A stretch of DNA of 64,000 nucleotides, taken from an uncultured beta proteobacterium. Its GTDB lineage: Bacteria; Pseudomonadota; Gammaproteobacteria; Burkholderiales; Burkholderiaceae_C. Under the pieces are notes generated by a model, which ran no database searches, was not told the origin of the DNA, and saw nothing but the letters and a program-made list of their open reading frames with translations. The DNA is taken from NCBI GenBank assembly GCA_903886275.1, contig CAISLN010000128.1, forward strand, positions 1 through 64,000. Direction: 5' to 3'. The position numbers were made by a program, and so were the translations under genes. Below, in pieces: positions 20,634 to 25,399 of the stretch. Numbering within the stretch: position 1 is the first letter of the stretch; every line of letters starts with the position of its first letter.

Positions 20634-22022
20634 ATGTCGCAAACAATCGCCTGGTTTATGCGTTTTTCCTGGCGCGACGCGCTGCTGTCCGCACTGCCAG
20701 CGGCGCTGCTGGTGGTGCTTGCGGTGTGGGCCGCGCTGCACTTTATTGATCCGGCGCCCACCATGCATGTGGTCATGGCCACAGGCGCCGACGACAGCGA
20801 ATACCTGGACTTCGCCCGCAGCTATGCCAATTTGTTGGCAGAGGACGGCGTGACGCTGGAGGTGCAGTCCACGGGCGGCGCCATGGACAACATCTTGCGC
20901 CTGCGCGATCCGCAGGATGCGGTGCGGATTGCCTTTTTGCAGGACGGTCTGTCGGACACCGAACAGAGCCGGGCCAAGGACTCCGATGTGGACTTGGTGT
21001 CGCTGGGCTCCGTGTCCTTCGAGCCGATCTGGATCTTCTACCGTGGACACGCGGTGCAGACCCGCCTTTCGGCCTTGCAGGGCAGGCGCATTGCGGTGGG
21101 CAGTCAGGGCAGTGGCACGCAGGTGCTGGCGCTGCGCCTGTTGGCCGCCAATGGCCTGAACGCTGCCAACAGTACCTTGGTCACGGCGGACCGGGCGCAG
21201 TCGCAAGCCATGCTGCAGCAAGGCCAAGTGGACGCGGCCTTTTTTATTGGTGCGCCCGAGTCGCGCCAGTTGCGCGCACTGATGGCCTTGCCCGGCCTGC
21301 GGGTCATGAGCCTGGACCAGGCCGAGGCCACCACGCGCCAGTTTCCCTACCTGCACCATCTGGTTCTGCCCCACGGCGCCATGGACCTTGGCACCAACCT
21401 GCCGGACCACGATCTGCACCTGCTGGCCACCACCACCACGGTGGTGGTGACACGCAAGCTGCATCCGGCGCTGGTGTCTCTGTTGATGAAGGCGATGCAA
21501 AAGACCCATGCCAAGGCGGACCTGTTGAACGCTCCCAAGTCCTTCCCTTCGGTCAAGGACAGCGACTTCCCGCTCAGCAAAGACGCGGCACGCTTCTATC
21601 AGTCGGGTTCGCCGTTTTTGCAACGCTACCTGCCGTTCTGGTTGGCCACGCTGGTGGACCGCGCGGCCCTGGCCGTCATTCCGCTGTTGGCCATTCTGGT
21701 GCCAGTGGTGAAGGTGGCGCCGGCCCTGTATAGCTGGCGCATACGCAGGCGCATATACCGCTGGTACGGCGAGTTGAAGTACCTGGAAATTCAGGCCACA
21801 GCCTTGCAGCCCGATGAGCCGCGCTCGGACCTGCTCAAGCAGCTCGACCAGATTGAGGAAAAGGTAACGCATGCCGTGCTGCCGCTGGCCTTTTCGGAGC
21901 ATGCTTACGGGCTCAAGGCGCATATCGATCTGGTGCGGCGCAAGTTCCGTGCGCCCCTCACCAGCAACGCCTTGGTGGCTCCGTCCGATGGAGTCGACGC
22001 GCGGGAGCCCGAAAGCGCCTGA
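20634..22022 (+). CDS. TAXI family TRAP transporter solute-binding protein with C-terminal TM segment
   Basis: MHVVMATGADDSEYLDFARSYANLLAEDGVTLEVQSTGGAMDNILRLRD; GRRIAVGSQGSGTQVLA. Confidence 0.85.
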   Translation: MSQTIAWFMRFSWRDALLSALPAALLVVLAVWAALHFIDPAPTMHVVMATGADDSEYLDFARSYANLLAEDGVTLEVQSTGGAMDNILRLRDPQDAVRIAFLQDGLSDTEQSRAKDSDVDLVSLGSVSFEPIWIFYRGHAVQTRLSALQGRRIAVGSQGSGTQVLALRLLAANGLNAANSTLVTADRAQSQAMLQQGQVDAAFFIGAPESRQLRALMALPGLRVMSLDQAEATTRQFPYLHHLVLPHGAMDLGTNLPDHDLHLLATTTTVVVTRKLHPALVSLLMKAMQKTHAKADLLNAPKSFPSVKDSDFPLSKDAARFYQSGSPFLQRYLPFWLATLVDRAALAVIPLLAILVPVVKVAPALYSWRIRRRIYRWYGELKYLEIQATALQPDEPRSDLLKQLDQIEEKVTHAVLPLAFSEHAYGLKAHIDLVRRKFRAPLTSNALVAPSDGVDAREPESA

Positions 22023-22125
22023 TCCGGCGTGGTGGCTATATATTGGAATTGGACCGGTTTTGCGTAGTTATTTTGGCTTTAGTTTTCGGCGCTGCAAATC
22101 ACAATCTGGGCAACCAGGAGATTTC

Positions 22126-22503
22126 ATGGAACTGCAGTACCAGCTCAAAGAGGGCAACTACCATTTATACGATCTGAGCACAGTTGCCAGCAAGATTACC
22201 GGCGAGCACCGCTTGCGCCTGAAGACCGAAACCGTGGCCATCGCCTTTGACCGCAGCACCGGCGCGCTGCACCAACATGGCAGCCCGGTGCGCATTCACT
22301 CCTGGGCCAGCAACACGCGCAGGCGCCTGCGCGCCGCCGGTGCCTGGGACAGCGCCGAAGACATCGTGGTGGTGTCCGGCCCCCTGCCGGTCGATGAAAT
22401 CAACAAATGCCTGGTCATCAACGGCTATTGCCGCAGCATGTTTAGCCGCCTGTCGAGCCTGCCGCATGGCAAGCTAACTGCGCGGCCCCGCACCACGCAG
22501 TAA
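22126..22503 (+). CDS. Hypothetical protein
   Basis: 125-aa ORF MELQYQLKEGNYHLYDLSTVASKITGEHRLRLKTE... with upstream aaccaggag RBS. Confidence 0.65.
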   Translation: MELQYQLKEGNYHLYDLSTVASKITGEHRLRLKTETVAIAFDRSTGALHQHGSPVRIHSWASNTRRRLRAAGAWDSAEDIVVVSGPLPVDEINKCLVINGYCRSMFSRLSSLPHGKLTARPRTTQ

Positions 22504-22843: not shown

Positions 22844-24133
22844 ATGTTGACCCATTTGCAACTCAAAAATTTTAAAGCTTGGACGGATACAGGCTTGGTT
22901 GATCTCAAGCCGGTCACCATGCTGCTGGGCACTAACTCGTCCGGCAAGTCCACCTTGATTCAAAGTCTGTTGTTGTTGCGGCAAACGGTGCAGTCGCCTG
23001 ACCGCACGATTCACCTGAATTTGGGCGGTGACGAGCTGCATGATTTTTTTAACTTCGGAGACTTTGACAATGTTTTGACGCAGGGGGCCTCACCCCGGCA
23101 GTTTCGAATTCGGTTTGACTTTAATCGGCCAGAAAAAAAGGGCGAAGTGACTGGGGGTGGTTTTCAGTGCAGCTACGGTCAGACATCGTCCGGGGCGGTG
23201 GCGGTGCAGTCCCTGCGGCTGTGGCAGGCCGACGACAGTCAAATCACCGTGGTTAGGCGCGACAAGGGCGCTTACTCGTTGACCGTGAACGCCGAGTCGC
23301 AAGTCCGTATGAAGAGCCGCGAATTGGCCCCGGAGCGTTCTATTGCCTTGTCGGCAAAGGCCTTGGCTGCATTGGGGACCGATGGGGCACTGGTGGAAGA
23401 CATGGGTTTGGCCGTGCGGCGCGAGCTGGAAAGTATTGTTTACCTGGGGCCTTTGCGTCGCAAGCCGGAGCGTGACTACGTGTGGAATAAGTCCAAGCCA
23501 GGCGAGGTGGGGGTGGACGGGCACAAGGCGGTCGATGTGCTTTTGGCAAGCACCTTGTTGCGTGGGGAAGGCAAGAATGAGATTGCTGACAGCGTGTCCT
23601 ACTGGCTCAAGCGCATGAAAGTGGCAGAGAAACTGGAAGTCCGGCAGATTGGCCGATCTACCCGATACGAGGTGGTGATTCACCGGGATGGTGTGATTGC
23701 AAACCTGCGCGACGTGGGGATTGGTATTTCTCAAGTCTTGCCCGTGTTGACGGTGGCCTTCTTCGCACCCGCCGGCAGCACCATTTTGCTGGAAGAGCCG
23801 GAGATTCATCTGCACCCCCTGGCGCAGTCTGTATTGGCCGAGCTGTTTGTTGAAGTGAGCAAGAAGCGCAAAGTTCAGTTCATCGTGGAAACCCATTCCG
23901 AGCACTTGTTCCGCCGCATGCAGACCTTGGTCGCCAAGGAGAAAATCAAGGTGGGTGATTGCGCGATGTACTTTGTTGAAAAGGGCAAGACTGGGGCTCA
24001 GTTGCGCTTGCTCAATCTGGATGAATATGGGCGCCTAACCAACTGGCCGGATCACTTCTTTGGCGACGCCATGGGGGAGACGCGTGAACAAGCCAGAATG
24101 ATGTTTGAACGCAAGAAAGCGAGTCAGGCGTGA
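22844..24133 (+). CDS. AAA family ATPase, DUF3696 / OLD-like
   Basis: Walker A LLGTNSSGKSTLIQSLLLLRQ; Walker B TILLEEPEIHLHP; VETHSEHLFRRMQ; C-terminal LNLDEYGRLTNWPDHFFGDAMGE (DUF3696). Confidence 0.9.
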   Translation: MLTHLQLKNFKAWTDTGLVDLKPVTMLLGTNSSGKSTLIQSLLLLRQTVQSPDRTIHLNLGGDELHDFFNFGDFDNVLTQGASPRQFRIRFDFNRPEKKGEVTGGGFQCSYGQTSSGAVAVQSLRLWQADDSQITVVRRDKGAYSLTVNAESQVRMKSRELAPERSIALSAKALAALGTDGALVEDMGLAVRRELESIVYLGPLRRKPERDYVWNKSKPGEVGVDGHKAVDVLLASTLLRGEGKNEIADSVSYWLKRMKVAEKLEVRQIGRSTRYEVVIHRDGVIANLRDVGIGISQVLPVLTVAFFAPAGSTILLEEPEIHLHPLAQSVLAELFVEVSKKRKVQFIVETHSEHLFRRMQTLVAKEKIKVGDCAMYFVEKGKTGAQLRLLNLDEYGRLTNWPDHFFGDAMGETREQARMMFERKKASQA

Positions 24134-24657
24134 AGCCCCGCTACGTGGTGGATACCAATGTGTTGATTGCCGCCAGTGCGGCCGATCCACAACATCCCAA
24201 GGATATTGACGCCACGCCTGCGGACCCCAGTTTGCGACTTCAGGTGTGGGAGTGGTTGGATCGGTTTCAGAGCTCGGACGCAAGGTTGGTTCTTGATACC
24301 GCTAACAAGATTTATGAGGAATACACAAACAAGCTGGGCTTCAATGATTTTGGCATCCAGGTGGTTATGCACAAATGGAGCACTGCCGCTACGGATGACG
24401 TTTCAGTGCAATACGACGCGGATGGGCATGGCGTGTTGCCTTCCAGTCTGGTGCCGGTGATTCACGATTTGGCGGATAGAAAGATGGTGGCAGCTGCACT
24501 GGAGGCGGTACGCACGTATGGCGTGGCGCCGATTGCCTTTGCCGGTGACACCGATTGGCACGAATGGGAAGATCAGCTCGTGCGACATGGGATTGAGCTT
24601 GAGCCGCTCATAGAGCAATGGTCTCGTGCGAAATTTGCTGAAAAAAAATTGCGTTAG
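24130..24657 (+). CDS. PIN-like domain putative nuclease
   Basis: RYVVDTNVLIAAS; LVLDTANKIYEEYTNKL; HDLADRKMVAAALE; FAGDTDWHEWED; GTG start overlaps ATPase stop (GTGA). Confidence 0.78.
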   Translation: MKPRYVVDTNVLIAASAADPQHPKDIDATPADPSLRLQVWEWLDRFQSSDARLVLDTANKIYEEYTNKLGFNDFGIQVVMHKWSTAATDDVSVQYDADGHGVLPSSLVPVIHDLADRKMVAAALEAVRTYGVAPIAFAGDTDWHEWEDQLVRHGIELEPLIEQWSRAKFAEKKLR

Positions 24658-24670
24658 CTCGATCGCCAGA

Positions 24671-25399
24671 ATGACCGATTTCTTCCGCTTTCCACATACG
24701 CCGCACATTGCCTGGTTGGCCCAGGGCGCGCCACGCGATGACAAGGTCTTGTCTGCCCAAGAGGCCAGTGACTTGCTCGGTGCAGACGTGGTGGTGGAAG
24801 AAAAATTGGATGGTGCCAATTTGGGGTTTTCGCTTTCGCTGGAGGGTGTGCTGCGCGCGCAAAACCGGGGGCAATATCTGCATGCGCCCCACGCAGGTCA
24901 ATTTGCGCGTCTGCCCGATTGGCTGCTATTGCATAGCGAAAGGTTGCGCGCGGCGCTGGCACCGCAGGCTAATCTGATGCTGTTTGGCGAGTGGTGTGCC
25001 GCCCGCCATTCGCTGGACTATGACCACTTGCCCGATTGGTTTTTGTTGTTCGATGTGTACGACCGCAGCCAAGAACGCTTCTGGAGTACGCCGCGCCGCA
25101 ACGCGCTGGCTGCCTCGCTGGGCTTGGCCACCGTGCCGCAGTTGTTGCAAGGGCAATGCGCTTTGCAGCAGCTCAAAGACCTGCTCACCCGCCAGCACAG
25201 CCAGTTTCGCCAGGGCACGCTCGAAGGCATCGTGATCCGGCGGGAGTCGGCCGACTGGTGCGAGGCGCGTGCCAAGCTGGTGCGGCCCGACTTCACCCAA
25301 ACCATTGGCGAACACTGGAGCCGTAGGCGCATTGAGTGGAACCGGCTGGATTGGGCTGCATATCGGATGAAATTGGATCAAGCAAGCGATGCGTGCTGA
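24671..25399 (+). CDS. RNA ligase family protein (Rnl2-like nucleotidyltransferase)
   Basis: Motif I VEEKLDGANLGFSL, III LFGEWCAARHS, IIIa FLLFDVYD, IV LEGIVIRRES, V RAKLVRPDF. Confidence 0.88.
   Translation: MTDFFRFPHTPHIAWLAQGAPRDDKVLSAQEASDLLGADVVVEEKLDGANLGFSLSLEGVLRAQNRGQYLHAPHAGQFARLPDWLLLHSERLRAALAPQANLMLFGEWCAARHSLDYDHLPDWFLLFDVYDRSQERFWSTPRRNALAASLGLATVPQLLQGQCALQQLKDLLTRQHSQFRQGTLEGIVIRRESADWCEARAKLVRPDFTQTIGEHWSRRRIEWNRLDWAAYRMKLDQASDAC

Follow-up and report, generated by a model that had tools for sequence, protein, structure and literature searches.

The anticodon nucleases PrrC and RloC are ATPase-linked RNases countered by Pnkp and Rnl1 of phage T4; their nuclease is of the HEPN type, and the repair is owned by the phage and requires end healing. 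RNA ligases in such conflict are known mainly from phage or from housekeeping repair. WonAB, an OLD-ABC ATPase with a nuclease, aborts infection by halting translation, with rRNA or tRNA as the suspected target (PMC12137116). In WonAB and PD-T4-4, both known for abortive infection, an ATPase gene is followed by a small nuclease gene, the nucleases are PD-(D/E)XK enzymes rather than PIN, and the systems as described consist of two genes (PMC12137116). HEC-03 is an Hma-embedded candidate in PADLOC and is likewise composed of two genes, its definition being taken here from the PADLOC-DB A and B models alone.

Our study revealed a ligase-bearing variant of HEC-03 in the window, a stretch of 64,000 nucleotides from an uncultured beta proteobacterium of the Burkholderiaceae_C (contig CAISLN010000128.1). 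The ATPase and PIN families of this unit and their order are the same as in HEC-03, and an RNA ligase gene stands third (Table 1). The HEC-03 models recognise the ligase-bearing form. The initial annotation had not recognised the composition as a named system, which stands for the ligase, as no model in PADLOC-DB v2 matched it, but not for the ATPase and PIN pair, which is already a catalogued candidate. A literature search found no paper naming HEC-03 together with a ligase, although an earlier mention is possible. PD-T4-4_B gave no match in the window unit, where the nuclease partner has a predicted PIN fold instead. The likeness to PrrC and RloC lies in an ATPase-linked RNase whose cuts would be mendable by an RNA ligase; the difference lies in PIN rather than HEPN, and in the phage origin and end healing of the repair in those systems.

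Table 1. Features of the three-gene unit in the window
Feature	Position	Strand	Remarks
OLD/ABC-type ATPase gene (AAA_15/AAA_21 with C-terminal DUF3696 tail)	22844..24133	+	429 aa; PADLOC HEC-03B E=3.7e-91
ATPase DUF3696 tail, ~residues 388-429	24005..24130	+	candidate PIN docking/specificity segment; divergence follows PIN
PIN-superfamily nuclease gene (putative)	24130..24657	+	175 aa; GTG start; PADLOC HEC-03A E=6.4e-8
ATP-dependent RNA ligase gene	24671..25399	+	242 aa; PF09414 E=2e-34; nucleotidyltransferase domain only

The three open reading frames, their tight spacing and the overlap of the PIN start with the ATPase stop (GTGA) were all confirmed, and 13 nt separate the PIN stop from the ligase gene. 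A dip in GC content had been noted, with the ligase as a possible older neighbour of an ATPase and PIN system. The dip is real, at ~0.54-0.58 over the ATPase and PIN genes and climbing inside the ligase gene, compared with 0.62-0.67 in most neighbouring genes, and it does not set the ligase apart from the rest of the unit. A promoter and terminator scan of the three-gene unit gave results no better than shuffles. Upstream lies a gene for a TAXI-type (NMT1_3) solute-binding protein (20634-22022), overlapped by a short open reading frame (21871-22503) whose reality is uncertain.

The identity of the first protein as a DUF3696/OLD-like ATPase was borne out by Pfam matches to AAA_15/AAA_21 and DUF3696 (residues 368-416), and its Walker A residues (G29/G34-K35-S36) and E317 are conserved among homologues. 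A Toprim domain, looked for as a mark of OLD, Gabija and PARIS, was matched by Pfam in neither the ATPase nor the PIN protein. The PIN assignment is weak from sequence (Pfam PIN_3, E=0.15; no useful match to PDB sequences) but firm from predicted structure. The AF2 model (pLDDT 96) drew its leading matches from PIN-superfamily nucleases, namely HARP RNase P (prob 1.00), PRORP, VapC and Regnase, with modest TM-scores (~0.34-0.47) and no E-value below 0.001. The structure prediction proposed in the initial annotation, together with five candidate active-site residues (D8, D56, E64, D113 and D116) that are near-invariant in 99 homologues, thus upholds the PIN-like label. A VapBC toxin-antitoxin was rejected, as the partners are an ATPase and a ligase and there is no space between them for an antitoxin reading frame. 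The five nucleotidyltransferase motifs (I-V) ascribed to the ligase are present, as seen in the PF09414 match and conserved residues, and K45, E107, E185 and K202 are invariant in the clade. Foldseek ranked archaeal Rnl, Naegleria Rnl, TbREL1 and T4 Rnl2 above DNA ligases for the ligase model (pLDDT 88). The protein is like T4 Rnl2 reduced to its N-terminal domain; the absence of the C-terminal domain separates it from the Rnl2 type and makes full strand-joining by the ligase alone uncertain. On its own, the N-terminal domain of Rnl2 is known to join 5'-phosphate RNA poorly. The C-terminal segment of the window ligase is strongly conserved (H215, W216 and N224).

The three genes are one real, conserved and widespread unit. 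Homologue neighbourhoods were examined in 399 genomes drawn evenly from the phylum, a sample used because the genome-wide ligase search selects on ligase similarity, and ATPase, PIN and ligase were found to co-occur, as the initial annotation had proposed to check. The full-length homologous ATPases (n=15) were followed directly by PIN in 15/15 cases and then by the ligase in 11/15, and 11/11 full-length ligases of the clade lay behind an ATPase and PIN pair; these counts take in the window, without which they are 14/14, 10/14 and 10/10. This refutes the suggestion that the ligase is an older unrelated neighbour. Seven more ATPase matches in the draw were partial and without PIN, and one genome held a ligase fragment only. 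That fragment (L158:1480-1800) encodes a truncated ligase of 106 aa alone before an HNH gene, probably left over from a unit that has been lost. Neither the even draw nor four same-genus mnmC loci, which lack the triple, showed a ligase in conserved synteny without the ATPase and PIN pair, and the ligase was rejected as a syntenic neighbour of mnmC. Genome-wide, the best 80 of at least 559 ligase relatives comprised 63 triples, 10 loci with PIN directly upstream and the ATPase undetected (3/10 begin close to a contig end) and 7 loci without this PIN. The 75 triples collected share identical order and strand, with ≤12 nt from a stop to the next possible start, so the arrangement is not due to chance. 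Gene order is kept down to 45 % ligase identity among plasmid copies, which were found in Aeromonas, Azotobacter, Tistrella and Rhodococcus and in which the PIN is annotated merely as a hypothetical protein.

The family was represented by 151 genomes, four of which carried the ATPase (E<1e-30) and five a close ligase (≥60 % identity). Four of the five ligase loci were contiguous triples, and the fifth (G034) was a PIN and ligase pair without the ATPase. One genome of the same genus (G126) had neither gene. Such pairs without the ATPase also occur at L091, L094, L097, L107, L110 and L023, and several lie next to genes for an ExeA-like ATPase and an amidohydrolase; this form may have been inherited vertically. 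Viral contigs held three ligases, one of them (L113) with the triple, the ligase relatives found in phages were distant ones only, and the Lelliottia copy had no DNA-level match in E. coli genomes. Of the loci L085 and L084, one lies in a metagenome-assembled genome labelled Chloroflexota and was nearly identical to the Piscinibacter locus; the label probably reflects contamination, and the locus was therefore left out as evidence of spread.

Genomic context points to the candidate defence role that had been suggested for the unit. The 71 proteins flanking 13 triples matched 67 PADLOC families at 1e-30, a count that overstates the number of proteins because many of these families overlap, whereas 71 proteins from nine control regions, drawn from five of the same genomes rather than all, matched six. 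The families beside the triples include BrxHI, DrmD/DpdE-type helicases, PglX, HmaB and HmaC. Copies were found on conjugative plasmids and inside Hma-, BREX- and DISARM/Dpd-like islands, with the triple adjoining HmaB and Orf5/HEC-06 (L203), lying between Ppl/AlbA_2 and BrxHI (L206) or adjoining DrmMI/DpdE-like genes (L024). Clear defence islands were seen at ~5/13 triples (G079, G195, G234, G233 and G245, with G195 and G245 assigned through similarity to G234 and G233), and ~8/13 had no obvious defence neighbour. The genes neighbouring the window's own triple are not defence genes.

Taken together, we favour, with a probability of about one half, a three-gene defence cassette in which an ATPase-gated PIN RNase would make cuts that the ligase could reseal, limiting self-damage. 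Its basis is the composition and order of the genes, the intact catalytic residues, the folds, the island and plasmid context, the swaps described below and the absence of an end-healing gene. From this we infer the sensing, the RNA target, the resealing and the direction of benefit, as follows. The OLD-type DUF3696 ATPase would sense infection and control the PIN protein, probably holding it via the C-terminal tail. On its release or activation, the PIN RNase would cut an RNA required for translation, most likely tRNA or rRNA, and the infected cell would stall. The ligase would directly seal 5'-phosphate/3'-hydroxyl ends, so that leaky or excess cuts would be rejoined, and the cassette would thereby become reversible or its self-damage be buffered. 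PIN enzymes leave 5'-phosphate/3'-hydroxyl ends, and Rnl-type ligases seal such ends. No end-healing (HD-AAA_33-like) gene is present in the triple, which fits, as ends left by PIN would need no healing. In contrast, pairs of Rnl and an HD-Pnk-like protein share Pfam PF09414 with the window ligase but are distant (<40 % identity) and have no ATPase and PIN; each of five such ligases outside the module was followed by an HD-AAA_33 protein, an architecture that we take to be that of HD-Pnk end-healing enzymes. WonAB may serve by analogy as a precedent for how defence by an ATPase and a nuclease could work. The ligase is likely a modulator rather than an essential antitoxin; it cannot be obligatory as an antitoxin, since 4/15 ATPase and PIN units are without it. 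Counting against the defence cassette, besides these ligase-less units, are the PIN and ligase pairs without the ATPase, the missing C-terminal domain of the ligase and the ~8/13 triples, along with the window's own, that have no obvious defence neighbour.

Comparison of the 75 triples revealed modular exchange. The divergence of ATPase and PIN is coupled (Mantel r 0.88), whereas the ligase is uncoupled (0.25-0.28, a value lowered by the range of ligase divergence, which sampling restricts). Two ATPase and PIN types were distinguished, with 27 and 47 loci, and one locus stands apart. The HEC-03A model is weak on the window PIN, though nearly full length, and scored 3e-28 on a type 2 relative and 6.6e-76 on the ligase-less L137; its strongest matches in the even draw (1.5e-74 and 8e-51, in G344 and G166) belong to a ligase-less ATPase and PIN clade. 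Two Variovorax loci (L051 and L090) have a common upstream flank (84 %) and a common ligase and downstream flank (88.5 %) but carry ATPase and PIN genes of different type at this one site, the break falling where the ligase begins. A swap of PIN only was seen between Comamonas L053 and Thauera L066 (ATPase 92 %, PIN 30 %, ligase 95 %), where the ATPases are near-identical to ~residue 390 and the last segments drop to 0.67 and 0.48, whereas pairs with like PINs show no such drop. The partial correlation of tail and PIN given the ATPase body was 0.75 in type 1 and 0.55 in type 2. The DUF3696 tail changes along with the PIN, and docking can account for this, as can plain linkage, since the tail coding sequence adjoins the PIN gene.

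The ligase is a partner common to several cassettes and not an older neighbour. The proposal of an ATPase-controlled RNase with its own ligase is supported in part, as to one co-occurring unit in a context that points to defence. A ligase acting as a general shield, mending RNA cut by phage or rival ribotoxins or by other defence RNases instead of serving this PIN, is favoured by a ligase phylogeny nearly independent of cassette type; type changes 20 times on the ligase tree, compared with 20-26 (mean 23) in 60 shuffles, and PIN type changes only twice on the ATPase tree. The linkage would then be explained by ligase and ATPase-PIN being useful in the same islands, and the ligase does also occur behind PD-T4-4, behind an RmrA-PIN pair or behind no recognised nuclease. 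However, every full-length ligase in the even draw is directly behind an ATPase and PIN pair, often overlapping it, whereas lone ligases should be commoner for a shield, which without an end-healing enzyme would also be poor against ribotoxins leaving cyclic phosphates. We consider a general shield unlikely.

A stress or RNA-processing module, in which a regulated endonuclease and ligase mature or recycle cellular RNA with no role in defence, is more doubtful still. HARP, the top structural match of the PIN protein, is a tRNA-processing enzyme, and some of the ATPase-free pairs share a single conserved chromosomal location among Aquabacterium-like genomes, but the unit is patchy in the family (4/151 genomes), is carried on plasmids and in BREX/Hma-type islands, and has had its PIN swapped. 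A ligase that takes part in the attack, misjoining cut RNAs into circles or chimeras or merely adenylating RNA ends, would suit a lone nucleotidyltransferase domain that may join poorly and a strongly conserved C-terminal segment, but is the least probable reading, as ligase-less ATPase and PIN units indicate that attack does not require the ligase and we know of no precedent.

Returning to the defence cassette, we tentatively suggest a self-reversing immune RNase, in which a single operon of the host would encode both the cutting and the resealing of RNA, the ligase being constant and the sensor-nuclease cassettes exchangeable. If true, defence would be dosed or undone instead of suicidal. 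If a defence cassette carries an RNA ligase of its own, the reversibility of bacterial RNase immunity would become testable, and the natural PIN-only swaps are ready variants for finding the determinants of RNA specificity and the part of the ATPase by which the nuclease is held.

Further cassettes (PD-T4-4 and RmrA-PIN) are likewise marked by the ligase, and for these RNA targets would then be predicted. At L055 the ligase gene overlaps PD-T4-4_B, behind PD-T4-4_A (L055:4975-7741; 4.9e-203 for A and 2e-93 for B, then directly the ligase), which suggests that PD-T4-4 may be RNA-cutting. This locus stands alone, as the three weak PD-T4-4_B matches in the 399 genomes come without a ligase, and PD-T4-4 with a ligase was rejected as a common form. 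An RmrA-like HTH/IrrE protein, a VapC-like PIN that differs from the window type and the ligase lie in a row at L109:3759-6132. At L057:6947-9364 and L103:3697-5652, where neither a PIN nor an ATPase was recognised upstream, a Schlafen/AlbA_2 protein comes after the ligase. The L055 island also holds a DrmMI-like methylase, a DUF3800 protein and an HNH gene. A related HNH_2 protein, with the N-terminus LQRxLIEKxGxDNGFE or similar, adjoins the ligase at L024:7593-8378, L055:9117-9923, L057:9523-10305 and L158:1076-1519.
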